This document shows positions 48,357 through 64,000 of a stretch of 64,000 nucleotides of DNA, one piece after another. A program made the position numbers and the translations under genes. The notes beneath the pieces were generated by a model. The model made no database searches, was not told where the DNA came from, and saw only the letters and a program-made list of their open reading frames with translations. The DNA comes from Cryomorphaceae bacterium (GTDB lineage Bacteria > Bacteroidota > Bacteroidia > Flavobacteriales_D > Sanyastnellaceae). Location of the stretch: assembly GCA_016124575.1 (NCBI GenBank), contig WGNM01000005.1, positions 146,118 to 210,117 on the forward strand. The letters are read 5' to 3'. The first letter of the stretch is position 1; each line of letters begins with the position of its first letter.

Positions 48357-49658
48357 TATCGTCAACGTCTCCCAGATTTGATCCCGAAGTTTTGGGTTTA
48401 CTTCGGTCTCATCTGCGTACGTTTTCCACTTGCTTACCACGTGCGATACCTGATCGATTGTTTCAATCCAATTTGAATGTCCGATTTTGATGCTTTCACC
48501 AACCTTTAGTAAATCGTTTCGGTTAATTTCTTTTCGTTTTCCGTTGATACTCAAGGCGTGCTGACTGACCCAAAGGCTGTCTGGTCGGTAGGCATGGCAA
48601 AGATCGTAAGCAGGAGCAAGTTCCCAAACGTCATCTTTTTTCAATCGAAAAGCGAAGTTTTTGGTGTGGTCATCGCAGTTTCTAGCGATAACGTTGAAGA
48701 CCATTCGTTTGAACATCTGCTCTGCTTGTGAGTATGGCAAACGCAACACGCGCATGGTCTGAAATAGCTGCTCGTAGCTGTAGCTTGTAACGAGGTTGAA
48801 GTCGACATGCTGCATCGCACACCAAGTCTGAATGTGATGTTTGGTGTTATGACCCTCGCGATCGAATCTTTTTGTCATAAAGTGTGCACGCTCATTTTCG
48901 ACAAGCAGACGGGAAGGCATCATCTCAATGCCACAATCGAGCGCCATTTTGTAATAGGCCATTTCAACCCTGCCATATCCATGTGTAGCGCCCAATTGAA
49001 CGTCTGATACCCCGTCAAGTTTGATCATCCAATGCTCAAATCCTCTGGGTGCTGTCGTTTGTCCGGATCGCACTTCGCCCGTTTTTTCGTTGAATGCAAT
49101 CACTGCTTTCGGACGTGCACCACCTGCTGATGTCCCTATGCGGATAATGTCGAGCAATGCCCTTTCTTTTTCTTCGTTGATGTTGGTCGAAAACGATTGT
49201 TTGCTGCTCAAAACTTGCTGGGCTACTTCTATCAAGCTTTCAACTTCGAGTGAAAAGCTGTTTTGCGAGTCGCTGAATCGACTCGGGGTAAACTCGAGTG
49301 CTCCCATTCCGCGTGAGCCAATGAAGCAGAGTGTTTCGACAGGGTTCATGCTGTTGATGGGACGGCCTTGTTGAGCAAGCCAAAGGTTTATCAACTCGTT
49401 GCCGTAGCGATCAGGCAATACATCTGCGAGCAACCCCGGCAAACCTTTAAAAGTATCGAACGCAGACCCCTGTTGTTGTCGCAAAGCCGGAAAGCTATAT
49501 ATGCTTTGTCCGCTAGCAACAGGCATGAAAATAGGCGCTAGGTCCCACCCGAACCGTTTAAACAGCTCCGTGTATTCAAATGTCGCATGCCCCGTTTTAT
49601 CATCCCATACGACAGCCCCGACTTGGTTTCCCCAAATGTTTATTTCAGCAGCCTCCAT
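48351..49658 (-). CDS. hipA: HipA-family serine/threonine kinase (toxin-like)
   Basis: The 435-residue protein has the HipA arrangement: a small N-terminal domain (MEAAEINIWGNQVGAVVWD), FKGLPGLLADVLPDRYGN, a nucleotide-binding loop GTSAGGARPKAV near 175, MIKLDGVS, the catalytic NVIARNCDDHTKNFAF near 318-332 and the metal-binding AYDLCHA. HipA proteins phosphorylate targets such as glutamyl-tRNA synthetase and cause growth arrest, with HipB as the antidote. The HipB-like gene lies directly upstream (1-bp gap), so this is a complete toxin-antitoxin module. Confidence 0.93.
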   Translation of the reverse strand: MEAAEINIWGNQVGAVVWDDKTGHATFEYTELFKRFGWDLAPIFMPVASGQSIYSFPALRQQQGSAFDTFKGLPGLLADVLPDRYGNELINLWLAQQGRPINSMNPVETLCFIGSRGMGALEFTPSRFSDSQNSFSLEVESLIEVAQQVLSSKQSFSTNINEEKERALLDIIRIGTSAGGARPKAVIAFNEKTGEVRSGQTTAPRGFEHWMIKLDGVSDVQLGATHGYGRVEMAYYKMALDCGIEMMPSRLLVENERAHFMTKRFDREGHNTKHHIQTWCAMQHVDFNLVTSYSYEQLFQTMRVLRLPYSQAEQMFKRMVFNVIARNCDDHTKNFAFRLKKDDVWELAPAYDLCHAYRPDSLWVSQHALSINGKRKEINRNDLLKVGESIKIGHSNWIETIDQVSHVVSKWKTYADETEVNPKLRDQIWETLTIL

Positions 49659-50050: not shown

Positions 50051-50366
50051 TAATAAATATTGTTGACTTTATGTATGTATGAAAAACAATACGTAAATGT
50101 ATTTTATATATTATAATGAATGATAAAACATTCAATATGAATTTTGTTACATGGGTCGTGATGAATTCTATGCTACTGATTGGTGTTTTTTCTTAGCTGT
50201 TTAATGTCATTAATTCACAAGGTGCTCAGTATTTAATACATTCATAAATTTCATAACATCGCGGTAACAGCAAAACCTTTTTTAGGTAAAGATTTGGTAA
50301 ACCTCGCGGGGTTGAATTGAGATAAGTTTGGGCACCCGAACAAACGATGTTTCAACCAAATCTGCT
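50008..50366. other. AT-rich intergenic region between divergent hipBA and the TonB-dependent receptor
   Basis: About 360 bp without a gene. It holds the operator-like repeats noted at 50026 and 50114, a small inverted repeat ATTCA-ATA-TGAAT at 50130-50142, and a promoter-like TAAGTTTG at 50323-50330. No ORF, RNA gene or terminator hairpin was recognised. Confidence 0.6.
50323..50330 (+). promoter_or_regulatory. Candidate -7 promoter box of the receptor operon
   Basis: TAAGTTTG matches TAnnTTTG and ends 36 nt before the ATG at 50367. It overlaps an in-frame GTG/ATG-type extension, supporting the shorter start. Confidence 0.5.
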
Positions 50367-53300
50367 ATGACCTTCCACCTGCGTTTAGCTACTCTGTCTT
50401 TACTGATGTTTTCGTCTCTCTTTGCATTATCACAAGGAACCGTGCGCGGTGTTGTAAGTGATGAGTTGGGAGAACCACTTCCTTTTGTGAATGTATATGT
50501 TAAAGACATCACTTCGATAGGCACCACAACTGACCTTAACGGTTTATACACATTGAACTTACCAGATGCCAATGCGCACGTCGTTGTTTTTTCTTCGGTG
50601 GGGATGGCTCAGCAAAACTTAGAAGTCACTGTTAAGAATAAAGAGGTATTCGTTCTGAATGTCAAAATGCTCAACATGGCCATTGAGATTGAGGGCGGGG
50701 CGGAAATCATTGTGAAGGCAAACAGGGGAGGAGAACCTTATATGGAAATTCTTAAGAAAGAGAATCCTTCGAGTATCGATTATATTTCAGCATCTACGTT
50801 TAAGAAAACAGGCGATACCAATGTGCCTGATGCGGTGAAGCGTATTAGTGGAGTTTCTACCGTAGGAGGTTATGTTTCTGTTCGTGGACTGTCTGATAGA
50901 TACATTAAAACCACAATCAACGGATCACGTCTCCCAACACTGGATCCGTTTACCAATAATATACGTATGGATATGTTCCCAACTGGGCTTATTGACAACG
51001 TTATTATAAGTAAGACGATGACTCCCGATTTGCCAGGTGATTGGTCGGGTGCCTTTATCTCAATTGAAACCAAAGACTATCCTGAAGAACTTCAGATAAA
51101 TTTTACAAGTTCGGTGGGTTACAATTCGCAGACAACCTTCAAAGACATTGTGACTTCACAAAGAAGTTCGACCGATTGGTTGGGTTTCGATAACGGATTC
51201 CGTGATATTCCAGAAGGAACGCCTACAGATCAGTCAAGTTTTCCACGGGAAATAAATCCATCACTATGGCAACAGTTTGATTACCTCGGTATCAGTGGCG
51301 TTTTAGAAGGTTATGGAATTCCGGCCGACCAAAATATAGCGAACGGTAGCATCGGTCATCAAATCGGATTGTCGGAACTAGGTTTTTTAGGGCCTGGTCA
51401 ATTCAACAATTCTTTCGCGGTACAAAATGCAATTAGTGAGTACAACCAAACGTATGCTCCATCAGTTTTCTTCACTGCCTACAACCAAGAATTAGAAAAT
51501 ATAGGTACATCTTTTAAGGATACTTGGTTTACTGTAAAGGACCAAGCGCCTTTGAATAGCAGTATCAGTTTGAGCATTGGTAATCAAACCAAGCTTTTCA
51601 AACGTCCACTTGGATTTGTAATAGGATTCAGACATAGCACAACTACAGAGTATGATCCTGATTCTGATCTAAACCGCACAAATCTTTCGCCTAATCAGAC
51701 GAGAGAGAATACTGCTACTTATGCAAATCTTCGCAACCAAGTGCAGCAAGTAAGTCGTGAAACCACGGGTTGGAGCGGTTTGGCTAGTTTAACTTACAAC
51801 CTTAACCCGAACAACAAAGTATCCTTGCTTTTCATGCCGAATTTTCAAGGACAAAATAAAGCGCGGAAATCAGAAGGTTTCTTGGAGGATAATCAGGATA
51901 TTTCTTTTGGAGAAGATCAGGTTTATGAAGAACGTCAACAATTGCTGACTCAATTTAACAGCGAACATTTATTCCCTGAAAGCAAAATTCGAATCAATAC
52001 AGATGCTTCCTATACAAAAGGAAAACGAAATTTGTTAGATTTTAAAGATTTCCGTTATTTATTTGACGGAACAGACTATTTGTTTAATAGCACATTCACA
52101 CCTGATCGTCGCTTCCGTTATATGGATGAGAACCTTTTAGATACTCGTGTTTCTATTGAAATCCCTGTTTTAGAAACAAAAATGAAGGGTTCAAAACTTA
52201 AATTTGGAGGCGCCTACCAATACAATACCCGTGAGAATCAGCAGGTAGTATATACCGTTCAAGGGCTGAACGAAAGCGATTTGGCGCTTGGGTTTGATGA
52301 CGTTATGTCTATAGAGCGTTTCAGAATTGTAGATGGAACTTCGTTTGATTTATCCTACAACAATACCTCTTCAAATGTCGATAGTGATTTAGGTTTCCTC
52401 AAAGTAGCTGGCGGTTTCGGAATGTTCGATCTTCGTGTCACCCCAATTCTTCGATTTGTAGGTGGTTTACGCGTAGAACATACCGATATGTTGGTGGATA
52501 TAAAAGAGTTCTATGAGAACAACTATGCGATAGATGACCCTCGTCGTTCTAGTCAAGGTCAACTATTAAGTCCAGGAGAAATTAATCAGGTCAATTTTCT
52601 GCCGAGTATCAATATCATTTACAAGCTTAAAGATGATGAAGAAGCTGCCGTTAATTTGCGTGCCAACTTTAGTCAATCTCTTGCTCGTCCAAGTTTTCGA
52701 GAACTTACGAATGTTGCTTTGTTCGATTATGAGTTATTTGCCCGTGTAAAGGGAAATACTAACTTGGAAATGACCTCAATAAATAACTACGATTTACGTT
52801 GTGAAAGTTTTTTCAAAGGCGGTTCAAATCTTTCTGCTAGCGTATTCTATAAAACCTTTAAGAACCACATCGAGTTGATTTTGGCTCCAGGTGATGAGTT
52901 TACCTGGCAAAATGCGGAGAGTTCACAAGCTCTTGGTTTCGAATTAGAAGGAAAGGTTGATTTAACTAAGAAACTGGAGTTAAGGGCGAATGTTACTTTT
53001 ATACGTTCGGAAACAACAGTAACGATTCCTGTGCCGGAAACACGCACAATGTTCGGTCAGGCACCGTATATTTTTAATGCAATGTTGAGCTATCGCTTGG
53101 ATAGTATAGGTTTGATCTTCACTGGGTCATACAATATACAAGGTCCTAAATTGGCATTGGTAGCTAGTTCGGCCTTCTCAGCACCCGATGTATTTGAATT
53201 ACCTCGAAACATGGTTGATCTCAAAGTGTCAAAACGCCTAGGAGAGCATTTTTCGATAGCTGTTGCAGCTAGAAACCTCTTGAATGCGACCTTGATTCGT

Positions 53301-53390
53301 GCTTACCGCTTTGAAAATGGTTATGATTTGCACTTTGATAGCTACCAATTTGGTACGGTTTACAACTTTAGTGTTTCATACGATCTATAA
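50367..53390 (+). CDS. TonB-dependent outer-membrane receptor with carboxypeptidase-regulatory-like domain
   Basis: The 1007-residue protein has a signal peptide (LSLLMFSSLFALSQ), a CarboxypepD_reg-like N-terminal domain (GTVRGVVSDELGEPLPFVNVYV, about residues 22-100), a plug domain (PDAVKRISGVSTVGGYVSVRGLSDRYIKTTINGSRLP) and a long beta-barrel ending in VYNFSVSYDL with an aromatic-hydrophobic terminus. It would import a large substrate using TonB energy; no SusD partner follows. The next gene starts 4 bp later, so the receptor and the first family paralogue share a message. Confidence 0.94.
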   Translation: MTFHLRLATLSLLMFSSLFALSQGTVRGVVSDELGEPLPFVNVYVKDITSIGTTTDLNGLYTLNLPDANAHVVVFSSVGMAQQNLEVTVKNKEVFVLNVKMLNMAIEIEGGAEIIVKANRGGEPYMEILKKENPSSIDYISASTFKKTGDTNVPDAVKRISGVSTVGGYVSVRGLSDRYIKTTINGSRLPTLDPFTNNIRMDMFPTGLIDNVIISKTMTPDLPGDWSGAFISIETKDYPEELQINFTSSVGYNSQTTFKDIVTSQRSSTDWLGFDNGFRDIPEGTPTDQSSFPREINPSLWQQFDYLGISGVLEGYGIPADQNIANGSIGHQIGLSELGFLGPGQFNNSFAVQNAISEYNQTYAPSVFFTAYNQELENIGTSFKDTWFTVKDQAPLNSSISLSIGNQTKLFKRPLGFVIGFRHSTTTEYDPDSDLNRTNLSPNQTRENTATYANLRNQVQQVSRETTGWSGLASLTYNLNPNNKVSLLFMPNFQGQNKARKSEGFLEDNQDISFGEDQVYEERQQLLTQFNSEHLFPESKIRINTDASYTKGKRNLLDFKDFRYLFDGTDYLFNSTFTPDRRFRYMDENLLDTRVSIEIPVLETKMKGSKLKFGGAYQYNTRENQQVVYTVQGLNESDLALGFDDVMSIERFRIVDGTSFDLSYNNTSSNVDSDLGFLKVAGGFGMFDLRVTPILRFVGGLRVEHTDMLVDIKEFYENNYAIDDPRRSSQGQLLSPGEINQVNFLPSINIIYKLKDDEEAAVNLRANFSQSLARPSFRELTNVALFDYELFARVKGNTNLEMTSINNYDLRCESFFKGGSNLSASVFYKTFKNHIELILAPGDEFTWQNAESSQALGFELEGKVDLTKKLELRANVTFIRSETTVTIPVPETRTMFGQAPYIFNAMLSYRLDSIGLIFTGSYNIQGPKLALVASSAFSAPDVFELPRNMVDLKVSKRLGEHFSIAVAARNLLNATLIRAYRFENGYDLHFDSYQFGTVYNFSVSYDL

Positions 53391-53394
53391 TGTT

Positions 53395-54702
53395 ATGAAA
53401 GAGTTTAATAGAATATTTCAATTTGGACTGTTGTCTGCTTTATCTGTTTTTTTTTTCAATTCAGCTTCTAGTCAAGGAGTTTTAGAAAATGTTACAGTAG
53501 AGACTTATTACATATCGAATGCTGACGATGCTGCAACAACTGTGGGCGGCACCCTCGATGAAGGATCAGTAACGTACAGAGTTTTTATTACGATCTGCGA
53601 GGGTTGTAATTTGAGGGCAATGTATGGTTCAGTGAATCATCCCTTTTCAATTACCTCAACAGAATTGTTTTTTAACAATACCGATCGCGGTAAGACATGG
53701 GGTTACGATATTCAAGACAATAGACTTGATGAGAATACGGTAGCGCTGGATTCATGGCTTGGCTTCGGCGGAGCTACTGATGAACATTGGGGTGTTTTGA
53801 AATCAATGGATGACAATGGATCGATCATTGGTGGAGCGAATCATGAAGATGGTCTTCTTGTGAACAATGCGAGCGCAATAGGTATTTTGTTGCCAGAGGC
53901 CGACGGACTATTACCTGCTTCTGCGACAGCTCCTTCGAATTTCTTTCAGTCAGGAACTGATCCTTCAGCTGTTTTTGGAATTGAAACCATAGGCAACGCA
54001 TTTGAAAGTACAACTTTCAGAGCGCAGTTTGACCCGATGAATATTCCTGAAACAGGTAACACATTTTTAGTTGCTCAACTTACAACAAAGGGCGATTTGA
54101 CATTTGATCTTAATTTTGAAATAGAGAATGCAAATGGTCAGCTCGTTAAGGTTGTTTCATCTGACGAAATTCTAGAAGCAGATGAGGTTTTTTCTGCTTT
54201 TCTTAGCTACCCTCTTTCTTGTGGATGCACAGATCCTTATTACTTGGAATTTGATGCAACAGCAGCTTGTGATGACGGATCTTGTGTAACTGAAATTGTT
54301 TACGGATGCTCTGATCCTGAAGCATGTAACTATGATCCGGATGTAAATTTCAACGTGCCTCAATTGTGTTGTATCCTCCCCGATAACTGTGTCGGTTTGG
54401 ATTCTGATGTATTGTGTCCAGGAATCGTAGGTATTGAAGATGTAACCACCAATTTCAGCGTGAATATCTACCCAAACCCTACAAATGGGTTACTCAATTT
54501 GGAATTGGAGGGTAATTTGACCTCTGTAGATTTGCGTATAATTGGAATGCGTGGAGAAATTATCGTACAGCGAAATCTACAAGCGTCAAATGGACAAATA
54601 TTTGACCAGTTAGATATAAGCGGACTCGCGAATGGCTTCTACACAGTGCAGTTGATCGCACCGACTTCTGTTTGGAATACCCGTATTTTAAAATCTGAAT
54701 AG
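53395..54702 (+). CDS. Secreted family paralogue 1 with Cys-repeats and T9SS sorting domain
   Basis: The 435-residue protein has a signal peptide (ending ASSQ) and the roughly 240-residue family domain: VETYY, TYRVFI, LRAMYGS, FFNNTDRG, NTVALDSW and LVAQLTT. Two Cys-repeats (GCTDPYYLEFDATAACDDGSC and GCSDPEACNYDPD) follow, then a T9SS type A domain (FSVNIYPNPTNGLLNLEL, and LANGFYTVQLI). It should be exported across the outer membrane. The start at 53395 (not an upstream Met inside the receptor gene) gives the signal peptide. It is 4 bp behind the TonB-dependent receptor. Confidence 0.88.
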   Translation: MKEFNRIFQFGLLSALSVFFFNSASSQGVLENVTVETYYISNADDAATTVGGTLDEGSVTYRVFITICEGCNLRAMYGSVNHPFSITSTELFFNNTDRGKTWGYDIQDNRLDENTVALDSWLGFGGATDEHWGVLKSMDDNGSIIGGANHEDGLLVNNASAIGILLPEADGLLPASATAPSNFFQSGTDPSAVFGIETIGNAFESTTFRAQFDPMNIPETGNTFLVAQLTTKGDLTFDLNFEIENANGQLVKVVSSDEILEADEVFSAFLSYPLSCGCTDPYYLEFDATAACDDGSCVTEIVYGCSDPEACNYDPDVNFNVPQLCCILPDNCVGLDSDVLCPGIVGIEDVTTNFSVNIYPNPTNGLLNLELEGNLTSVDLRIIGMRGEIIVQRNLQASNGQIFDQLDISGLANGFYTVQLIAPTSVWNTRILKSE

Positions 54703-54786
54703 CATTTTTCGTAGACGAAAGCAATAGTCTTTGCTAGGGTAACTTAAACATAACTGTTTTTTCACACCCACAGCATGTGATTAGAA

Positions 54787-54794
54787 TATTTTTG
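54787..54794 (+). promoter_or_regulatory. Candidate -7 promoter box of the five-gene array
   Basis: TATTTTTG matches TAnnTTTG and lies 21 nt before the ATG at 54816, after a 113-bp intergenic gap. This marks the start of a second transcription unit. Confidence 0.6.
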
Positions 54795-54815
54795 TAGTTC
54801 AAACATAAAACACAC

Positions 54816-56000
54816 ATGAACCGATTTTTATCCACCCTATCTTTATTCTTAACACTCGTCCCAACTGCTTTATTGGCACAGTATTCACCTCCAGATGGTA
54901 CTGCTTTAGAGGCAATTTTTGTTGAACGTTACTATGTTTCTGATACATTGGATGTAACAGATGAAGATGGTGGTTTTTTGGATACTTGTTCGGTAACCTA
55001 CAGAGTTTATGTTGATTTGAAACCGGAGTATCGATTACAGGCTGTATACGGTAATGCGCGTAACTTATTGAAAATAGAAACAGAAACTGTGTTTTTCAAC
55101 AATGAAGATCGCGGAGAGGTTTCTGGTGATTTGATAGGAGCAAACTTCCTTGATAACAATACAGTAGCCCTTGATTCATGGGTTACGATGGGCCCAGCCT
55201 CGAATGCACATTGGGGTATTCAGAAAACCTCTGATAGTGATGGATCAATCGTTGGAGGTTCTAACAATGACGGGGGAAGCGAAGCAATAGAAGGTGGATT
55301 GTTAGTTTACAACAATTTGGCTGCTGGTGTAGCTTTAACTGAAGCCGACGGACTATTAAGCGGAGTAGTTCCAACAATTACTGCTGTAGGTTTGGATCTG
55401 AGTGTTTTTGACTCTTCAAACTCAGGTTCTTTGTTTGAAACCATGAATGGTGCTTGGTCTGTATTAGAAGGAGTAGTTGGTCCTACTGAAGACAATATTA
55501 TTTTGATTGGGCAATTTACGACTCGAGGTCAGTTCGATTTCCAAATGAACATTCAAATTGGAATACCACCAGCGTTGCAATGTCAGCATCCTGATTGTCA
55601 CTCAACCATTCAATATGTTGCTGAATTGCATCCTTTGGATGCCGTTCCGGGAGTTGAGAACGATAATAAATTTCCTTTTGCTGGCTTAACGTATGTTTCG
55701 GAACCATTGTTTTGTGATTTCGATAGTTCAGTTTTGGAAGAAGACTTAAGTATAGATTTCAGTGCATTCCCAAACCCAACATCAGGAATGGTTCAAATTT
55801 CAATTGATCAGAAGGTTGGTCAGGAACTTGATTTGGAAGTTTATGATGTTTTGGGTAACCTCGTTCACAGTGTTAACTATGGTAATGTTTCAAATCACTT
55901 CAATGCCGAAGTTGATCTCTCTGCTTCTCCTGCTGGTGCATACACTTTTGTAGTGCGTTCAGAGAATGGAGCACGTTTTTCTAGAATAGTAAAATATTGA
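54816..56000 (+). CDS. Secreted family paralogue 2 with T9SS sorting domain
   Basis: The 394-residue protein has a signal peptide (LVPTALLAQ), the family domain (VERYYVSD, TYRVYVDL, LQAVYGN, FFNNEDRGE, NTVALDSW, WSVLEGVVGPT, LIGQFTT) and, directly after it, a T9SS type A sorting domain (IDFSAFPNPTSGMVQISI, then SPAGAYTFVV). It has no Cys-repeats; one Cys pair (CQHPDC) lies between the modules. It shows that the family domain alone can be a complete exported product. Confidence 0.87.
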   Translation: MNRFLSTLSLFLTLVPTALLAQYSPPDGTALEAIFVERYYVSDTLDVTDEDGGFLDTCSVTYRVYVDLKPEYRLQAVYGNARNLLKIETETVFFNNEDRGEVSGDLIGANFLDNNTVALDSWVTMGPASNAHWGIQKTSDSDGSIVGGSNNDGGSEAIEGGLLVYNNLAAGVALTEADGLLSGVVPTITAVGLDLSVFDSSNSGSLFETMNGAWSVLEGVVGPTEDNIILIGQFTTRGQFDFQMNIQIGIPPALQCQHPDCHSTIQYVAELHPLDAVPGVENDNKFPFAGLTYVSEPLFCDFDSSVLEEDLSIDFSAFPNPTSGMVQISIDQKVGQELDLEVYDVLGNLVHSVNYGNVSNHFNAEVDLSASPAGAYTFVVRSENGARFSRIVKY

Positions 56001-56002
56001 TA

Positions 56003-56764
56003 ATGATGTTTGTAGCTCGTTATATTTTCTGTGTCAATCTATGTTTGATAGGCCTATTTGCTTCCTGTCAAGAAGGATTGGAAGATATTTTCATAGAGAC
56101 CTATTACGAGTCAGATGTGAACCCCTTTACTGGTGAGTCGGCTCATGTAAAGACCTATCGCATTTATGTAGATTTAGCAGAGGGGTATAACCTTCAAGCG
56201 ATATTCGGAAATTCAAAACATCCAATGTTTTTAGAAGTTTCTGAACCAATATTGAATCAGACCGATCGCGGTTCTGAAATAGGTACATGGTTAGACTACA
56301 AGCGCTATGGTGACGGGAATCTGTATTTAGATTCTTACCTAACCGTTGGTGTTGTTGCCAATGCTCAATCAGGAGTGCCGTTGAAGTATGATGTTGATGG
56401 TTCGAACTACCCTACATGGTTGGGGGAGAGCTGTCCAGATAAATTTACAAAGGTTGATGGAGTTTTTAAAAGCCTTCCTGCGAACATACAGTTGATTGGC
56501 TTGGATGCGTCACCATTTGGTGATAGTCAAGAAGGCAAAAGAATAGAAACTAGCGATGGCTGTTGGGCATTGATGGGCTCTGTAAAAGGAGGTACACCTG
56601 AAAACTGTGTATTGATTGCTCAAATTACAACATCTGGTGAGATTTCATTTGAATTGAATCTACAAGTTGGTAAACCAGATGGTTTACCTCAGCAATTCGT
56701 TGCTCGCAATCCTACAGGGAAAGAACTACTTTCAGAAAAACTCATTTATCCTCGACCGCAATAA
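56003..56764 (+). CDS. Secreted family paralogue 3, lipoprotein form without C-terminal sorting module
   Basis: The 253-residue protein holds only the family domain (IETYYESD, TYRIYVDLAEGYNLQAIFGN, NQTDRGSE, LDSYLTVG, CWALMGSVKGGTPENCVLIAQITT). Its N-terminus ends in LIGLFASC, a lipobox (Cys22 of the ATG-56003 form), so it is probably lipid-anchored rather than carried by a sorting domain. The sequence is more diverged than the other copies and lacks Cys-repeats. The start follows the previous stop by 2 bp; a second ATG is at 56006. Confidence 0.82.
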   Translation: MMFVARYIFCVNLCLIGLFASCQEGLEDIFIETYYESDVNPFTGESAHVKTYRIYVDLAEGYNLQAIFGNSKHPMFLEVSEPILNQTDRGSEIGTWLDYKRYGDGNLYLDSYLTVGVVANAQSGVPLKYDVDGSNYPTWLGESCPDKFTKVDGVFKSLPANIQLIGLDASPFGDSQEGKRIETSDGCWALMGSVKGGTPENCVLIAQITTSGEISFELNLQVGKPDGLPQQFVARNPTGKELLSEKLIYPRPQ

Positions 56765-56807
56765 AGAACACCACCCTATAACAACACAAACCTAACCTAA
56801 CTTTATC

Positions 56808-58286
56808 ATGAGAAATGTGCTTGTTATAGTTTTCAGTCTTTCGATTTCGGTTTTAGGCCGCAGTCAAGGCTTAGAGAATATTCTAGTTGAAACCTACTAT
56901 GTTTCAGATAGCAATGATGCTACCGATACCGATGGAGGAAGTTTGGAAGTTGGGTCAGTTACTTACAGAGTTTTTGTAGATATGGCACCTGGTTATGAGT
57001 TGCAAGCTGTTTACGGAAATGAGAATCACCCGCTAAGTATCTCAACCTCAACATATTTTTTTAATAACGAAGATCGAGGAGAAAGCAAAGGGGATGTAAT
57101 AAATGATATCCGTCTTGATGAAAACACTGTGGCATTGGACTCTTGGTTAACCATTGGAGCTGCTTCAGATGCTCACATTGCTGTGCCTAAGAATATAGAT
57201 AGCAATGGGTCTATTGTAGGTGGTATTAACAACGACGGCGGCAGTGAAGGTATTGCTGGGGGTTTGTTGACAAACCTGGTTGGGGTAGGAATTCCTCTAA
57301 CGCAATCCGATGGTCTGCTAAGTGAAACGTTGCCTAGTTCTGTTGTGACTTTAGGTGTTGATTTATCACTATTTGCGAATGCTAACGCAGGAACTACATT
57401 TTCAACGAGCAGCGGCGCGTGGTCTGTTTTAGAAGGATTTCAAGGAGTTACCAGTGAGAATTATGTGCTGATAGCTCAACTTACAACCAAAGGTTCATTG
57501 ACTTTTCATATAAACCTTCAGCTCGGTACTCCGGGAGGTGGCACTGAGAAGTATGTTTATAGCAATCCCATTGCTGGAGAGATTGGTTTTCCTGCTTTGA
57601 ATTTTCCAGTTGTCGCGGTAAACGGCTGCACAAGCTCTGCGGCATGCAATTACAATCCTCTTGCTACAACTGATGATGGAAGTTGCTTATTGCCTGTGGT
57701 TGACTGTTCAACTTGTGTTGGTGATCAGTTGGTTGTAATTGATACCGACATGGATGGGGTTTGCAATGCGCAAGAGATTCTGGGATGCACAAGTGATACA
57801 GCTTGTAATTATAATGTTGACGCTACAGAAGATGACTTTTCTTGTGTTGAATCCACTCCAGGATGCTCATTTTGCAATTCTTCGAACGATGGCCTAATTT
57901 TAATCGATAGCGATGGAGATGGGGTATGCGATGCCAATGAAATTTCAGGGTGTTTGAACCCAGAAGCTTGTAACTATAATCCTAATACAACGAATGAAAT
58001 ACCATGTATTATTCCTTTTCCAAATTGTGTAGAATGCAATGTTTTAGGAACAGGGTTGATACTTGTTGATACAGACGGAGATGGAATTTGTGATGCTGAA
58101 GATACACCACCTACTTGCCTGGGTGACTTCGATGCCAACGGCACCATAGCATCCGCCGACCTTTTATTTTTTATATCTCAATATGGATGTCAGTCTGAAT
58201 GCACTGGTGACCTCAATAATGATGGGGTTGTAGATACCAGTGACATCCTTATTATGTTCAGTCTTTACGGAGCCGATTGTCAATAA
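56808..58286 (+). CDS. Secreted family paralogue 4 with Cys-repeats, Ca-loops and double dockerin-like tail
   Basis: The 492-residue protein has a signal peptide (ISVLGRSQG), the family domain (VETYYVSD, TYRVFVDMAPGYELQAVYGN, NEDRGE, NTVALDSW, WSVLEGF, LIAQLTT), three Cys-repeats (GCTSSAACNY, GCTSDTACNY, GCLNPEACNY) alternating with DTDMDGVCN, DSDGDGVCD and DTDGDGICD loops typical of calcium binding, and finally two dockerin-like segments (GDFDANGTIASADLLFFI and GDLNNDGVVDTSDILIMF) ending ADCQ. No T9SS domain is present. The dockerin-like repeats resemble EF-hand-type calcium loops. Confidence 0.85.
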   Translation: MRNVLVIVFSLSISVLGRSQGLENILVETYYVSDSNDATDTDGGSLEVGSVTYRVFVDMAPGYELQAVYGNENHPLSISTSTYFFNNEDRGESKGDVINDIRLDENTVALDSWLTIGAASDAHIAVPKNIDSNGSIVGGINNDGGSEGIAGGLLTNLVGVGIPLTQSDGLLSETLPSSVVTLGVDLSLFANANAGTTFSTSSGAWSVLEGFQGVTSENYVLIAQLTTKGSLTFHINLQLGTPGGGTEKYVYSNPIAGEIGFPALNFPVVAVNGCTSSAACNYNPLATTDDGSCLLPVVDCSTCVGDQLVVIDTDMDGVCNAQEILGCTSDTACNYNVDATEDDFSCVESTPGCSFCNSSNDGLILIDSDGDGVCDANEISGCLNPEACNYNPNTTNEIPCIIPFPNCVECNVLGTGLILVDTDGDGICDAEDTPPTCLGDFDANGTIASADLLFFISQYGCQSECTGDLNNDGVVDTSDILIMFSLYGADCQ

Positions 58287-58315
58287 ATAGCATGATTCAA
58301 CCAAAACCAAATACA

Positions 58316-59425
58316 ATGAAAAATCTTTTAACATCTATCGTTTTACTTCTCTCTACAGGAGTCGTTTTTGGGCAAGGCCTGGAAGACATTATTGTAGAAA
58401 CATACTACATCTCGGATGCCAATGATGCAACGGATACTGATGGTGGCTTTTTACCTGAAGGATCAGTTAGTTACCGCATTTACGTTGACATGGCTCCAGG
58501 ATACGAAGTTCAGGCAGTTTATGGAAACTCAAACCATACTTTGCGTATTTCAACCTCTACTTTTTTCTTCAACAATGAAGACCGAGGCGCAACAACAGGA
58601 ACTGGTATTGCTTTGAATCGTTTTGATGACAATACAGTTGCTGCAGATACGTATGTTACACTTGGCGGTCCAACGGCTACAACTTTGGCTGTTTTGAAGT
58701 CGGAAGATACAAATGGTGCAGTTGCGAATAGCGACGGCTTCATGCAAAGTACAAATCCTTTGGCTGGTATTCCTATGTCGGTTCAAGATGGTATGATTCC
58801 AGGTTCTTTGCCTTCAGCAGTAGTTTCTGTGGGACTTGATTTGTCGATGTTTGACAATGAGAATAGTTCAGTTTCTTTGCTTTCTAATGGTGGCGCATGG
58901 TCTGTATTAGAAGGTGTTGTAGGTCCAACACCTACCAACCGTGTTCTTTTAGCTCAAATCACAACGGATGGAGATTTGGAATTCGAATTGAATATTCAAT
59001 TGGGTACTCCTACGGGTGGTGTAGAGCAATATGTTGCTAGCAATCCAATTGGAAATGAGCAATTTTTTGCAGGTCTTACATTCCCATCTTTAGGGGTTGA
59101 TGGTTGTACTAGTGCGACTGCATGTAACTACAACCCATCAGCAAACAACGACGATGGTTCTTGTTTGGAGCCGGTTGCCGGTTGCTCAGAATGCAACGGA
59201 GCAGATTTGGAACTAATTGATTCCGATGGCGATGGGATATGTGATGCCGACGATTGTTTGGGAGATTTCAACGGCGACGGAACAATCTCTTCTGCTGATT
59301 TGTTGGTCTTCGTTTCTCAGTTCGGATGTAGCTCAAATTGCACGGCCAATTTAGATGCAGATCCTTCAGTTTCAGGATCAGATTTCCTTGTTTTCCTTAG
59401 TCTTTTTGGCAGCGATTGTCAGTAA
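58316..59425 (+). CDS. Secreted family paralogue 5 with one Cys-repeat and double dockerin-like tail
   Basis: The 369-residue protein has a signal peptide (LLSTGVVFGQ), the family domain (VETYYISD, YRIYVDMAPGYEVQAVYGN, FFNNEDRG, NTVAADTY, WSVLEGVVGPT, LLAQITT), one Cys-repeat (GCTSATACNYNPSANNDDGSC), one DSDGDGICD loop, and a tail with two dockerin-like parts (GDFNGDGTISSADLLVFV and a weaker second with SGSDFLVFLSLFG) ending SDCQ. The ATG at 58316, 29 bp after the previous stop, gives the signal peptide directly; ATGs upstream would add a non-signal extension. Confidence 0.85.
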   Translation: MKNLLTSIVLLLSTGVVFGQGLEDIIVETYYISDANDATDTDGGFLPEGSVSYRIYVDMAPGYEVQAVYGNSNHTLRISTSTFFFNNEDRGATTGTGIALNRFDDNTVAADTYVTLGGPTATTLAVLKSEDTNGAVANSDGFMQSTNPLAGIPMSVQDGMIPGSLPSAVVSVGLDLSMFDNENSSVSLLSNGGAWSVLEGVVGPTPTNRVLLAQITTDGDLEFELNIQLGTPTGGVEQYVASNPIGNEQFFAGLTFPSLGVDGCTSATACNYNPSANNDDGSCLEPVAGCSECNGADLELIDSDGDGICDADDCLGDFNGDGTISSADLLVFVSQFGCSSNCTANLDADPSVSGSDFLVFLSLFGSDCQ

Positions 59426-59445
59426 TTTTCAATTCATTTCACCCG

Positions 59446-61584
59446 ATGAAACACTTATTTACGATTGTCCTTTCTATCTTCTCCCTCGGCATTTGGGCCC
59501 AAGGATTAGAGAATGTTTTTGTTGAAACGTACTACGTTTCAGATGCCAATGATGCCACCGATACAGATGGTGGTAACTTACCTCCAAACTCTGTAACATA
59601 CCGGATTTTTGTCGACATGGCACCTGGATATGAGTTGCAAGCCATTTATGGAAATACCAACCACGAGGCTCGTATAGAAACAACAACCTTTTTCTTCAAT
59701 AACCTCGATCGTGGGGAGATTTCAGGTGACATGATTCCTGCAAATCGATTAGATGAAAATACCGTTGCACTTGATTCGTGGGTAGGTATGAGCGGTGCCT
59801 CAGGTATTCATTTAGGTGTTCCTAAAAACATGGATACTAATGGGTCCATCATTGGTGGTGATAACAATGATGGTGGTAGTGAAGGCATATCAACAGGTTT
59901 GTTGATTAACAATGATCCACTTGCTGGAATTCCGCTTACAACTGCTGATGGGTTGATTACTGGTTTTGTTCCAACAGTAACTGCAGTTGGTCTAGATCTA
60001 AGTATGTTTGCTGAATTAAACAGTTCTGTAGCTTTTTCTTCTAACGGAGGTGCATGGTCTGTTCTAGAAGGTGTGCAAGGGCCAACTCCTGAGAATATTG
60101 TTTTAATTGCTCAAATTACTACTGATGGCGAACTTGAATTCCACCTCAATCTTCAGTTGGGAATTTTAACTGGAGGAGTTGAACAATATGTTTCTTCAAA
60201 TCCTACTGGAAATGAACAGTTTTTCAACGCTCTGAACTATCCTTTGCTTCCTGTTTTCGGTTGCACAAGTCCTACTGCTTGTAATTATGACGTTACAGCT
60301 GAGGAAGAAGATGGGTCATGTATTGAACCAACCGCCAATTGCGAAATATGCAATGCTACAAACACGGGTCTAGTATTGGTTGATACAGACGGTGATGGAA
60401 TTTGCAACGCACAAGAAATACCTGGATGCACTACAAGCACTACAGCATGCAACTACAATCCAAATGCAACAGATGAAGTGCCTTGTTTGGAACCAATCAT
60501 GGATTGTACGATTTGCAATGGAGTAAATCTGATTTTAGTTGATACAGATGGAGACGGTGTTTGTGATGCAGACGAAGTTTCTGGATGCATGGACAACACT
60601 GCATGCAATTATTCAGCAACAGCGACAGATGACGATGGTGGTTGTTTGATTCCTGTCGCCAATTGTTCAGTTTGCAATGCCAACAACGACGGCCTTGATT
60701 TGATAGATACTGACGGAGATGGCATTTGTGATGCTCTTGAGAACCCAGGTTGTTTTAGCGCAACAGCGTGTAACTACAATTCAGAGGCAACTTCAGATGA
60801 CGGGTCTTGTATTGAACCAATTGAGAATTGCCAGATTTGCAACGAAACAAACACCGATCTAATTATCTTAGATACCGATGGTGATGGAATTTGTGATGCT
60901 CAAGATATGCCTGGATGCATGAGTTTATCAGCTTGTAACTACAACCCATTTGCTCTTCAAGATGACGGAAGTTGTCTTGAACCAATTGACGGTTGTAGTG
61001 ATTGCAATGATGAGAATACTGCACTTGTGCTTATTGATACCGACGGAGATGGAGTATGTGACGGTGAAGAAATTGCAGGTTGCACAAGCAGTTCTGCATG
61101 CAATTACAATGACGCAGCTACCGACGAAGACGAATCATGTATCGAACCAATTGAAGACTGTTACGCGTGTAACGAGACAAATGACGGATTGGATTTTGTA
61201 GACACCGATGGTGATGGAATTTGTGATGGCGAAGAGATTTTTGGCTGCACCAATCCTGAAGCTGAAAATTACAATCCTGAGGCCACAGAAGATGACGGAA
61301 GTTGCATTGTAAGTGTTGAGGAAATTCAATCTCATTTTAATTTTTCAGTAACACCGAATCCTACAAACGGAGCTTTGCAATTGAATGTTTCAAGCAATAT
61401 CGGAGGGGTAGCTCAGATTCAAGTTTTGAACCTGATGGGACAAGTAATCTTGGTTCAGGATATCACAATAACCGCTGCGAAGAAATCATTCTTCATAGAT
61501 TTGTCAGGAAAGTCAGCAGGCGTTTATTTCGTTCGCACAGGATTGAACGATTCTGTTGTTACTCAACGAGTTATAAAGGAGTAA
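59446..61584 (+). CDS. Secreted family paralogue 6 with long Cys-repeat/Ca-loop array and T9SS sorting domain
   Basis: The 712-residue protein has a signal peptide (IFSLGIWAQ), the family domain (VETYYVSD, TYRIFVDMAPGYELQAIYGN, FFNNLDRGE, NTVALDSW, WSVLEGVQGPT, LIAQITT), and then seven Cys-repeats (GCTSPTACNY to GCTNPEAENY) alternating with six DTDGDG(I/V)C(D/N) loops, forming a composite repeat of about 50 residues. The C-terminus is a T9SS type A domain (FSVTPNPTNGALQLNV, then SAGVYFVRTGL). It is the largest member of the array and ends a probable five-gene operon before a terminator. Confidence 0.88.
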   Translation: MKHLFTIVLSIFSLGIWAQGLENVFVETYYVSDANDATDTDGGNLPPNSVTYRIFVDMAPGYELQAIYGNTNHEARIETTTFFFNNLDRGEISGDMIPANRLDENTVALDSWVGMSGASGIHLGVPKNMDTNGSIIGGDNNDGGSEGISTGLLINNDPLAGIPLTTADGLITGFVPTVTAVGLDLSMFAELNSSVAFSSNGGAWSVLEGVQGPTPENIVLIAQITTDGELEFHLNLQLGILTGGVEQYVSSNPTGNEQFFNALNYPLLPVFGCTSPTACNYDVTAEEEDGSCIEPTANCEICNATNTGLVLVDTDGDGICNAQEIPGCTTSTTACNYNPNATDEVPCLEPIMDCTICNGVNLILVDTDGDGVCDADEVSGCMDNTACNYSATATDDDGGCLIPVANCSVCNANNDGLDLIDTDGDGICDALENPGCFSATACNYNSEATSDDGSCIEPIENCQICNETNTDLIILDTDGDGICDAQDMPGCMSLSACNYNPFALQDDGSCLEPIDGCSDCNDENTALVLIDTDGDGVCDGEEIAGCTSSSACNYNDAATDEDESCIEPIEDCYACNETNDGLDFVDTDGDGICDGEEIFGCTNPEAENYNPEATEDDGSCIVSVEEIQSHFNFSVTPNPTNGALQLNVSSNIGGVAQIQVLNLMGQVILVQDITITAAKKSFFIDLSGKSAGVYFVRTGLNDSVVTQRVIKE

Positions 61585-61611
61585 GAATAACCAAACCAAT
61601 TTTTCATATTG

Positions 61612-61655
61612 AGCGGGCCTACGAGTTAAAATTCGGTAGGTCCGCTTTCTTTTTG
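61612..61655 (+). terminator. Intrinsic terminator of the paralogue operon
   Basis: AGCGGGCCTAC (61612-61622) pairs with GTAGGTCCGCT (61636-61646), with one G-T pair in the middle, followed by a T-rich run. Confidence 0.82.
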
Positions 61656-61816
61656 TGCGACTTAAAGTAGAATTGTTATTGGTTACATTCTTTTCATTTT
61701 GGGGTAATCGAACCATAGTCTTTAGTTAATCATATTTGGATGATAAGTGATGAATTTTGACCAAGCTCAAAGTGAGCATAAATTTTTAAAGGTTTAACCA
61801 ATTTCAACCAAAACAC

Positions 61817-63349
61817 ATGGCTTTTTTACCTAAAAATTTGATTGTTGCATCGATTGCAATTTTCACAGTAACAACAGCATCAGCGCAACTTGCGTTGGGC
61901 GAAGATTGCGGATGTCCTGCTCTTGCTAGCAGAACTGAAGTGAACATCTCTACTCTTACTGATGCTTCTGGAAACCTTCCAGTTGGATCAACTACTTTCA
62001 CTTGCGACAAAACGTACATGATTGACCAACAAGTTTACGTTCAAGACGGAGCTAACTTGTTCGTTCAGCCTGGTACAGTTCTTCGCGGTGTATTTGGACT
62101 TGGATTCGACGCTAACGCGTTGATCGTTTCTCGTGGTGGAAAACTTTTCGCTAACGGAACTGATTGTTGTCCAATCATCTTCACTGATGCGAACGATCCA
62201 TTGGATGGTTCTTACTCAGTAAACATCCGCGGTCAGTGGGGTGGTGTTATCATGCTTGGAAGAGCTACTAACAACCTTTTGTTGGCTAACGGTGGTCTAG
62301 CTGTTGGTGACGGTGAAGGTACAATCGAAGGATTGGTAGCTGGTGATTCTCGTAACCACTACGGTGGTAATGATGACAACGATTCATCTGGTAGCTTGAA
62401 GTATGTTTCTATCCGTCACGGTGGAACAAACATCGGTGCTAACAACGAAATCAACGCTTTGACTCTTGGTTCTGTTGGTCGTGGTACTACACTAGAGCAC
62501 ATCGAAGTTATATCTAATGACGACGATGGTGTTGAGTTCTTCGGTGGAACTGTTGACTTGAAGTACGCTAACGTTATGTTCTGTAACGATGACTACTTTG
62601 ACTGGGATCATGGTTATTCAGGTCGTGGTCAGTTTTGGTACGGTGTTATGCTTCCTGCTTTCGCTCCAATCGCTGGTCAAGGTGACTTCGGTTTCGAAGC
62701 TGACAGTGATGACAGCAACTCTGGAAACTTGCCAATCGCTAACCCAATTATCTACAACTCTACTTTGATCGGTCGTGGTGCACAACGTGCTTTGGAAATG
62801 AAGGAAGGAACTGCTGGTCAGATTTCTAACTCAATCTTCGTTAACTTTGGATACGGTGTTAACCTTGCTGACGAGGCTTCTCGTGCTTTTGATGCTATCG
62901 ATAACTACAACACTGAATTGTTGAATTTCTCAAACAACTTGTTTGATACTAACGGTGAATTGTTGCGTGTTAACAACGTTGCAGCTCCTGCTGTTACTTT
63001 GGCTTCTTTCCAGGGTGCTGGAAACGTTCTTGCCCCAGGAGTTATCGACTTCACATGGAGCATCGACCCAACAACAAACCAAGTTATCGCTGCTTTGAAC
63101 CCAGTTCCAACTATCGATGTTACTAGCCCTGAAGTTGCTCCAGTTGACGATTTCTTCACTGGTGCTAACTACAAAGGTGCTTTCAAGCCAGGTGCTACAC
63201 CTTGGACTGCTGGCTGGACTGCTGGTGCTCTTTTGGGTATCGACAACTCTCTTATCGCTTGTCCGGAAGATATCAACACAGACGGTAACGTTAACGTTGA
63301 TGATTTCCTTCAGTTGCTAGGTGCTTTCAACACATCTTGCGGACTATAA
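61817..63349 (+). CDS. Secreted beta-helix-like protein with dockerin-like tail, highly expressed codon use
   Basis: The 510-residue protein has a signal peptide (FTVTTASAQ). The body resembles Bacteroidota exported parallel-beta-helix proteins: GTVLRG, ALIVSRGGKLFANGTDCCPIIFTD, GQWGGVIMLGRA, KYVSIRHGGT, LEHIEVISNDDDGVEFFGGTVDLKYA and DDYFDWDHGYSGRGQFWYG. Related proteins are often encoded near TonB-dependent receptors of the type at 50367. The C-terminus is dockerin-like (CPEDINTDGNVNVDDFLQLL) ending TSCGL. Codons are strongly biased to C-ending Asn, Phe, Tyr and to GGT, CGT and GCT, so it is likely an abundant surface protein. Confidence 0.85.
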   Translation: MAFLPKNLIVASIAIFTVTTASAQLALGEDCGCPALASRTEVNISTLTDASGNLPVGSTTFTCDKTYMIDQQVYVQDGANLFVQPGTVLRGVFGLGFDANALIVSRGGKLFANGTDCCPIIFTDANDPLDGSYSVNIRGQWGGVIMLGRATNNLLLANGGLAVGDGEGTIEGLVAGDSRNHYGGNDDNDSSGSLKYVSIRHGGTNIGANNEINALTLGSVGRGTTLEHIEVISNDDDGVEFFGGTVDLKYANVMFCNDDYFDWDHGYSGRGQFWYGVMLPAFAPIAGQGDFGFEADSDDSNSGNLPIANPIIYNSTLIGRGAQRALEMKEGTAGQISNSIFVNFGYGVNLADEASRAFDAIDNYNTELLNFSNNLFDTNGELLRVNNVAAPAVTLASFQGAGNVLAPGVIDFTWSIDPTTNQVIAALNPVPTIDVTSPEVAPVDDFFTGANYKGAFKPGATPWTAGWTAGALLGIDNSLIACPEDINTDGNVNVDDFLQLLGAFNTSCGL

Positions 63350-63375
63350 TTTACAAATAGGGGCTATAAAAAAAT

Positions 63376-63407
63376 GTGGGTGCCGACTCTTGCCAGTCTG
63401 CACCCAC
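63376..63407. other. Strong intergenic hairpin without T-tract
   Basis: GTGGGTGC pairs with GCACCCAC, and an inner GACT with AGTC around loop CTTGCC. There is no T-run after it on the plus strand, but an A-run before it. It could stabilise the 3' end of the upstream message, attenuate transcription into the next gene, or act as a terminator for minus-strand transcription. Confidence 0.6.
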
Positions 63408-63436
63408 TTACTAATAGCTCCCAAAATTCAACCGAT

Positions 63437-64000
63437 ATGGGAAATCTTCGCAATTTACGAAATTTCCTTCTTGCTCTATTCACCGTGGCTTTTTGTCAGG
63501 TGGGTTACTCACAGGGGCTAGAAGGTATTATTGTTGAGACCTTTTACATTGCAGATGCGAATGACGCATCAGACACCGATGGTGGTAGCATTGCAAATGG
63601 TGCAACAACATACAGAATATATGTAGACATGGCTCCGGGTTATGAGATCCAGGCTGTGTACGGTAACGCTGCGCACACAATGCGTATCGCTACTTCAACT
63701 GAATTCTTCAACAATGAAGACCGTGGTGCTATTTCTGGTCACGGTATTGCTTTAATCCGTTGGGATGACAACACTGTTGCTCTTGATTCATACCTTACTC
63801 TTGGTGCTGTAACTGCAGCTACTTTGGGTGTATTGAAGACAGATGATACCAATGGTGCTGTTCAAAACGCTGACGGTTTCCTTCAAAGTGCCAACCCACT
63901 AGCTGGAATTCCAGTTTCTGTGGCTGATGGTATGTTTCCAGGAACTACTGCTTCTGCCCTTGTAACTGTTGGTTTGGACGCTTCTATGTTCGACAACGTG
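63437..64000 (+). CDS. Secreted family paralogue 7, partial (3' end outside window)
   Basis: The open frame gives 188 residues up to the window end. It has a signal peptide (AFCQVGYSQ) and the family domain start (VETFYIADANDASDTDGG, TYRIYVDMAPGYEIQAVYGN, FFNNEDRGA, NTVALDSY, and PLAGIPVSVADG). It is closest to paralogue 5, judged by the shared PLAGIP block and the DDTNGAVQNADGF segment. After the signal peptide codon use becomes strongly biased, as in the beta-helix gene upstream. The C-terminal module cannot be seen. Confidence 0.85.
   Translation, partial: MGNLRNLRNFLLALFTVAFCQVGYSQGLEGIIVETFYIADANDASDTDGGSIANGATTYRIYVDMAPGYEIQAVYGNAAHTMRIATSTEFFNNEDRGAISGHGIALIRWDDNTVALDSYLTLGAVTAATLGVLKTDDTNGAVQNADGFLQSANPLAGIPVSVADGMFPGTTASALVTVGLDASMFDNV

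Follow-up and report, generated by a model that had tools for sequence, protein, structure and literature searches.

The closest described counterparts of the locus reported here are the cellulosomes of anaerobic Clostridia, together with the cohesin (PF00963; cellulosomal types I and II and the non-cellulosomal 2vo8 and 2xdh) and dockerin (PF00404, NF041540) domains, the MSCRAMM and Als adhesins (1amx, 4b60, 4lee) and the SusCD loci. The locus lies in a window of 64,000 nucleotides from the 3.68 Mb genome of a Cryomorphaceae bacterium (contig WGNM01000005.1; G000:C43:146118-210117). It runs on the plus strand from position 50328 to beyond the window end and comprises a TonB-dependent receptor gene, six genes with a shared N-terminal domain, a gene labelled beta-helix by the original prediction, and a seventh gene with that domain (hereafter NTD, the N-terminal domain common to the seven array paralogues). 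The locus has the scaffold, adaptor (NTD plus dockerin) and tailed-cargo logic of a cellulosome, but anchoring would be by type IX tails and not by an S-layer or sortase, a TonB-dependent receptor is present in the operon, the cargo identified is not mainly cellulases and no cohesin was found in the window's genome. The NTD resembles a cohesin in being a predicted secreted beta-sandwich of similar size which shares genomes and operons with dockerin-like tails; it differs in having no detectable sequence relation to cohesins and a structural Z below 8, with adhesins tying, and dockerin binding by it would be deduced from co-occurrence. Like dockerins, tails in the window's genome consist of C-terminal duplicated calcium-loop-helix units, except that two tails of the array fall below the model cut-off and that of the beta-helix protein is a half-dockerin, with a single loop-helix.

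We tentatively interpret the locus as a type IX-displayed docking system in which, in the family to which the window belongs, the NTD would take the place of the cohesin; we would not give this as much as an even chance. It draws on gene order, tail types, the identities of dockerins and cohesins, and their co-occurrence, all of which were read from sequence.

The original prediction described seven plus-strand paralogues with a common domain and a set of motifs (VETYY, YRVYVDM, LQAVYGN, FFNNEDRGE, NTVALDSW and LIAQLTT). These motifs are indeed common to seven plus-strand open reading frames (ORFs), with 22 columns invariant across all seven, and a hidden Markov model (HMM) built from the six complete copies recovered all seven at E 4.6e-98 or better, six of them being its own seeds and the last gene the only independent match. 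The seven genes are therefore real, but the last is cut by the window edge and is in full a frame of 2366 amino acids (aa) that carries, besides two NTDs and a long stretch of repeats, two additional domains and a type IX tail (36.5 bits). The tandem array also stands, but the domain is found elsewhere too: HMM searches of the window's genome identified 18 NTDs in 16 ORFs; the array contains eight of these domains and the rest of the genome ten, and counting one weaker copy (L038) the total is at least 19 NTDs in 17 ORFs. Array NTDs are of a long form of ~240 aa, whereas copies elsewhere are of a short form of ~190 aa without the central insertion; two of these ten lie in the window, at about 31667-32254 and 32306-32863. 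A type IX tail is present in nine of the 17 ORFs and a dockerin-like tail in four (three by NF041540 match, and 31634-34456 by sequence reading), the remainder ending bare, in an unrecognised tail or at a contig end.

Type IX C-terminal sorting domains (TIGR04183 / PF18962) were found over cut-off in 53395 (36.8 bits with TIGR04183, cut-off 23), 54816, 59446 and the last gene, and no type IX tail over cut-off was found in 55997, 56808, 58316 or 61817 in the Pfam and NCBIfam scan. The tails of 56808 and 58316 scored 24.4 and 26.2 bits with the dockerin_GC model (NF041540), below its cut-off of 29, and both are alignable with other two-loop tails; 14 such tails were aligned with both loops and had a dockerin as their best PDB match (E 2.4e-10). 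The tail of 61817 is a single dockerin loop-helix flanked by two cysteines. A profile of 36 aligned tails of this half-dockerin type, each with one loop-helix and no duplicated loop-helix, had dockerin 2y3n_B as its best PDB match (E 1.4e-10), followed by EF-hand proteins. The window's genome gave 36 dockerin_GC matches at E<=1, 12 of these over cut-off, and 25 ORFs in the fetched genome stretches end in a dockerin-like motif. When the lists were compared by eye, with type IX tails taken from the 150 scored among 212 candidates, no ORF had both a type IX and a dockerin tail. The 19 dockerin-tailed proteins scanned include trypsin-like and reprolysin-like peptidases, sortilin-like and lysyl-oxidase-like proteins, an esterase, and choice-of-anchor I, CBM48-type, lamin-tail and beta-helix proteins. 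Dockerin_1 (PF00404) was over cut-off in three of them, and none had a glycoside hydrolase catalytic domain at E<=0.001.

The locus is not confined to this genome. A scan of named genomes with the array NTDs identified 67 loci; the 64 contigs that contain them have titles such as Bacteroidetes and Flavobacteriales. Together with five loci from the window's own genome or from other genomes it was possible to order the genes of 72 loci, L090-L093 being omitted as duplicates of named contigs and many of the 72 being cut by contig or locus ends. The usual order elsewhere is NTD–NTD–TonB receptor–NTD–lipoprotein–"beta-helix"–long NTD protein. Writing T for the receptor, N for an NTD gene, F for a Fib_succ_major/lipoprotein gene and B for the beta-helix gene, T-N-F-B-N occurs in 24 of the 72 loci, in three further loci with one extra N, and T-N-N-N...-B-N without F in seven, the window among them. 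The F gene is present in 46 loci, and the sole member scanned (L110:15800-16552) is a Fib_succ_major protein that begins like a lipoprotein. These loci contain 54 beta-helix ORFs, four of which are truncated at the end of the locus (L095, L111, L150, L156); a half-dockerin is present on 47 of the other 50, and 46 of the 47 are over 480 aa. The beta-helix gene, which had been taken for an interruption of the array, is instead a fixed member of the cluster, and the array, although diversified in its tails (type IX, dockerin-like or none) as had been proposed, is better described as an expanded version of a conserved multi-gene cluster with fixed slots. The survey of neighbouring genes in other genomes suggested with that prediction thus yielded a conserved cluster. 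Among its carriers are lake or pond metagenome bins (CAMCXT010000001.1, CAMAXI010000006.1 and others like them) labelled Chitinophaga pinensis or Chryseobacterium gleum, names that look doubtful or wrong.

In a tree of 119 NTDs, the NTD of 53395 falls in a pure clade of 27 genes (support 1.0) which lie behind the receptor in other genomes. Since this slot is one clade that includes the window copy, the slots are old. Gene 55997 groups, though weakly (support 0.58 for 14 tips and 0.70 for 7), with small tail-less genes. ORFs 54816, 56808, 58277 and 59416 and the two NTDs of the last gene make up, together with two genes from one other genome of the window's family, a clade of 8 (support 0.82). 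Judged by the tree, the array copies are not equivalent, and most of the other window copies are younger expansions within the family.

True cohesins were found in the same clusters. PF00963 matched the long NTD protein of two genomes, and a profile made from a 14-sequence cohesin alignment from this phylum, whose best PDB matches are cohesins (E 8.3e-12), matched 21 of the 37 NTD ORFs that are at least 800 aa long (several of the 37 being cut by locus ends), usually twice. These cohesins lie after the NTD and immunoglobulin (Ig)-like domains and before the type IX tail, and genes neighbouring the long NTD genes carry them as well. In many lineages the half-dockerin gene therefore adjoins a true-cohesin scaffold, whereas in the window's genome there was no PF00963 match at E<=1 and no match of the cohesin profile at E<=0.05. 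In three long NTD proteins (L116:14417-17878, L122:14397-17876, L137:3219-6659) a Dockerin_1-like stretch occurs between two cohesin-like domains, weakly at 18 to 20 bits, below cut-off.

The distribution of NTD and dockerin across genomes was also compared. In a phylum sample the NTD was present in 2 of 395 genomes and dockerin_GC in 7 (over cut-off in 2). In an order sample, counted with the same search that was used to find the NTD, the figures were 129 and 95 of 299 genomes, with 92 of the 95 dockerin genomes having the NTD. The window's family accounts for most of these (NTD in 113 of 114 genomes; dockerin_GC in 90, all 90 with NTD), while outside it the NTD occurs in 16 of 185, dockerin_GC in 5 and both in 2. 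Genus averages over 21 genera of the family gave a Spearman correlation of 0.83 for NTD matches (counted up to 10 per genome) or 0.70 for loose candidates, and with genome size removed by ranks rho was 0.82 and 0.70 (n = 21 genera). The half-dockerin profile matched strongly (E<1e-10) in 15 of 17 NTD genomes, six of the 15 having supplied sequences to that profile, versus 0 of 17 NTD-less genomes, four of which had weak matches. Of the 24 genomes of the family in which dockerin_GC was not matched, 21 show a match to the half-dockerin, and one of the 24, G672, is also without an NTD match. PF00963 at E<=0.1 was found in 8 of 10 genomes with dockerin-like matches but no NTD (5 over cut-off) and in 3 of 5 other NTD genomes (3 over cut-off), compared with 4 of 25 in the NTD-rich family. 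These numbers, drawn from related genomes and partly from capped counts, suggest a partnership of NTD and dockerin without proving it. Similar domains and GC-type dockerins presumably occur also in Planctomycetota; the genome searches here were made within one phylum.

With regard to the NTD itself, no Pfam or NCBIfam family is common to its copies: the lead member matched none, and 61 members gave 13 (Pfam) and 8 (NCBIfam) unrelated single-member weak matches, while the NTD profile against PDB sequences gave only two implausible matches (E 0.031 and 0.46). The view that it has no family name is borne out, and within the libraries searched the NTD is, as far as sequence goes, a new and unnamed domain family. 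It was not filed as a bona fide cohesin because the domain had no PF00963 match in the NTD proteins and its profile reached an hhalign probability of 0.1 % against the cohesin alignment. A single alignment of 61 sequences gave a well-supported model for the short form (second NTD of 31634-34456; predicted local distance difference test, pLDDT, 93.2; predicted template modelling score, pTM, 0.88), in agreement with a conserved fold across the copies, and the long-form model reached pLDDT 80. The model is a beta-sandwich of the cohesin/adhesin class. Foldseek ranks cohesin 2vo8 first for it (E 1.3e-3, probability 1.00), with a collagen-binding adhesin and ApaG coming next; with VIA-align, Als3 scored Z 6.8 and cohesin 2vo8 Z 6.4 (125 aligned, root-mean-square deviation 4.4). 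Cohesins make up 24 of the 50 listed structural rows, the others being mostly Als/MSCRAMM adhesins and Ig-like proteins. With the long-form model against 1000 chains the first 21 rows are all cohesins (Z 4.5 to 5.4), in a list biased by Foldseek pre-selection. The domain thus lacks a sequence family but its modelled fold has relatives, and from the models it would belong to the cohesin / MSCRAMM / Als adhesin class, below the decisive fold score.

In the docking system that we propose, type IX-tailed NTD proteins would be surface-attached scaffolds, and dockerin-tailed proteins (61817-63349 and ~25 to 36 other secreted proteins) would be held on them by that tail. Such cargo (proteases, an esterase, lysyl oxidase-like and binding proteins) would be bound through the dockerin instead of a type IX tail of its own, NTD proteins with dockerin tails (56808, 58316) may act as adaptors as in cellulosomes, and the TonB receptor may import material released by the displayed proteins. 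In other lineages the half-dockerin would be bound by the classical cohesins of the long NTD protein that adjoins the beta-helix gene, while in the window's family the NTD would be the dockerin socket. Surface location, binding, the socket role and import are what we infer here. A dedicated surface or extracellular system, as originally suggested, is likely given the joint presence of type IX tails, dockerin-like tails and a TonB receptor, and in lineages with true cohesins the cluster is likely a cohesin–dockerin surface system anchored through type IX. That the NTD is the dockerin socket in the window's family is doubtful by comparison, but it is the best candidate, since no cohesin is detectable there while dockerins and NTDs have multiplied, and since it is a sandwich of the cohesin/adhesin class. 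It is possible, if less than probable, that the NTD represents a class of dockerin receptors unrelated in sequence, and that this family swapped its cohesins for NTDs and multiplied them along with dockerin-tailed enzymes and type IX-anchored scaffolds into a Gram-negative cellulosome-like system with half- and two-loop dockerins.

A number of results weigh against the docking system with the NTD as its socket. Even at E 10 a PDB search with the NTD profile retrieves no cohesin, whereas the cohesin profile does retrieve them, and the hhalign probability of the NTD profile is the 0.1 % given above; no hit reached E<=0.001 with Foldseek (0 of 1150) or Z 8 with VIA-align (0 of 998), and adhesins score level with cohesins (Als/MSCRAMM Z 5.2 to 6.8). 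Where classical cohesins share a protein with the NTD, the NTD would be superfluous as a socket, and in the family itself PF00963 at E<=0.1 was found in 4 of 25 genomes examined (3 over cut-off). About one third of the 36 dockerin matches in the window's genome are weak (E above 0.01), and the lipoprotein of other clusters is missing from the window layout. Three genomes have dockerin_GC without the NTD, and G475 and G688, as well as G524, G676 and G682 among the family genomes without dockerin_GC, have the NTD and no half-dockerin match. The correlations between counts allow for phylogeny only by averaging within genera; in addition, both domains are present together in some proteins, and the two counts could each track a larger, repeat-rich secretome.

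The main rival to a socket role is that the NTD, presented beside the TonB receptor, serves as an adhesin or binds a ligand (a polysaccharide, a particle or a cell surface), the dockerin-like tails being only anchors which classical or unrecognised cohesins bind. We regard this also as unlikely, yet it survives best among the alternatives. Als and MSCRAMM adhesins have structural scores equal to those of the NTD core (Z 6.8 to 5.2), with no sequence relation found and no adhesin domain of these groups known to bind dockerins; classical cohesins do occur inside NTD proteins, the small tail-less NTD gene is close to a minimal secreted NTD, and an NTD gene adjoins 52 of the 54 receptors over 800 aa in the 72 loci. 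Such an arrangement of TonB-dependent receptor and secreted partners in one operon is reminiscent of SusCD loci, but the window receptor scores 53 bits with TIGR04056 against a cut-off of 368, and no SusD-like or carbohydrate-active gene was identified among the nine proteins of the window cluster that were scanned. A ligand-binding role also leaves aside that the window's genome has many dockerins yet no cohesin that could be found, and that NTD number tracks dockerin number.

It is improbable, though less far-fetched than a mere coat, that the dockerin-like and half-dockerin tails serve at the C-terminus as another sorting or stabilising signal, exchangeable for the type IX tail, the NTD being an unrelated structural domain. 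This idea is favoured by the beta-helix proteins, on which the two tails replace each other: the three exceptions among the 50 (L114, L121, L158), together with L092 and L093, the duplicates that account for two of the five, come from TonB/beta-helix pairs that lie next to and, by gene order, outside the N-T-N cluster, and all five have a type IX tail over cut-off, as opposed to 0 of 4 in-cluster beta-helix proteins scanned as control. The tails also lie at the extreme C-terminus in 83 of 83 matches, usually with a cysteine pair, and one tailed protein is a member of a choice-of-anchor family. Such a signal is, however, at odds with the match of the tails to solved dockerins, with the classical cohesins encoded beside the half-dockerin gene in many clusters, and with the 7 of 36 aligned half-dockerins from which the cysteines are absent. 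Receptor/beta-helix pairs without NTD were noted at L093:1442-3136, L114:1962-4823, L121:5841-8705 and L158:5987-7723, and such pairs beside the clusters suggest that receptor and beta-helix gene were paired before the cluster arose.

A self-assembling extracellular coat or matrix, in which NTDs associate with each other, the GCT/ACNY repeats are spacers and dockerins co-occur because of a large secretome, would fit the very long calcium-binding-type repeat regions (TSP3_bac and EF-hand matches), the tandem NTDs in one chain and the high copy number in the family, but is quite improbable as it leaves the half-dockerin on the beta-helix gene and the cohesins of long NTD proteins unexplained. 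Chance or artefact was discarded as an explanation, since dozens of further genomes have the cluster.

Should the docking system prove true, a whole Bacteroidota family (113/114 sampled genomes with NTD) would sort part of its secretome by docking and not by individual type IX tails, and would do so by means of a domain that present libraries lack. The beta-helix protein, with its type IX tail in some cases and its half-dockerin in others, would constitute a natural swap experiment, and GC-type dockerins would have a socket, possibly as a new orthogonal protein–protein pair. Even if the NTD were only an adhesin, the operon of half-dockerin and cohesin would be a clear non-cellulosomal cohesin–dockerin locus. 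No such locus was found in the literature on dockerins and cohesins of Bacteroidota, type IX and scaffoldins at the level of titles and abstracts, with subscription papers largely outside, and the term "GC-type dockerin" was not found in the literature searched.

The features of the window are given in Table 1. The receptor opens the locus, as predicted, with its three Pfam domains over cut-off, and its true start is probably a few codons 3' of 50328. Its stop (53390) and the start of the first NTD gene are four bases apart and ORFs 54816 and 55997 overlap; because of this tight spacing the genes of the locus look co-transcribed.

Table 1. Genes of the NTD locus and of a separate NTD gene in the window (window positions)
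Feature	Position	Strand	Domains and remarks
TonB-dependent receptor, locus opener	50328..53390	+	CarboxypepD_reg-like N-terminal domain, plug and barrel; Pfam OMP_b-brl_3, CarbopepD_reg_2 and Plug over cut-off
NTD protein 1	53395..54702	+	NTD ~53482-54207; type IX type A tail; "behind TonB" slot
NTD protein 2	54816..56000	+	NTD ~54906-55634; type IX type A tail
NTD protein 3	55997..56764	+	NTD ~56078-56752; ends right after NTD; tail-less slot
NTD protein 4	56808..58286	+	NTD ~56871-57608; GCT/ACNY repeats; two-loop dockerin-like tail 58110-58283
NTD protein 5	~58316..59425	+	NTD ~58379-59086; repeats; two-loop dockerin-like tail 59252-59422
NTD protein 6	~59446..61584	+	NTD ~59506-60243; seven-fold GCT/ACNY repeat region; type IX type A tail
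Beta-helix-like secreted protein	61817..63349	+	C-terminal half-dockerin 63239-63346
NTD protein 7	~63437..64000 (cut by window edge)	+	First NTD from ~63518; continues in G000:C43
Separate gene with two tandem short-form NTDs	31634..34456	+	NTDs ~31667-32254 and ~32306-32863; GCT/ACNY repeats; half-dockerin-like C-terminus

The beta-helix-like protein had no Pfam or NCBIfam match. A number of other candidates were tried and rejected. A loose lipobox pattern was present in only 3 of 41 small NTD ORFs, and a lipoprotein signal was not retained as a general trait of the tail-less slot; a dockerin-tailed gene of 293 aa in genome G452 proved to be without an NTD. A viral origin was not supported, one array NTD having found no relative among the viral contigs scanned and a structural search of viral models having given one match (E 2.6e-4, TM ~0.25) that was taken as noise. 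One short NTD had no match in plasmids.

Long runs of the repeat GCTxxxACNYNPxAxxxDGSC with DTDGDGxCD linkers are found in 59446-61584 and in the gene from 63437, in G000:C43 to ~216558; the repeat has no model of its own in Pfam or NCBIfam, TSP3_bac and EF-hand models matching only parts. Gene 31634-34456, whose end is single-loop dockerin-like, is among the closest links of NTD with half-dockerin in one chain. At 35974-39036 there is a long secreted protein with a weak dockerin-like C-terminus at ~38950-39024 (NF041540 16.1 bits, E 0.055), and at 48351-49658, on the minus strand and divergent from the receptor gene, is a gene whose sequence, on reading, resembles that of a HipA-type kinase.

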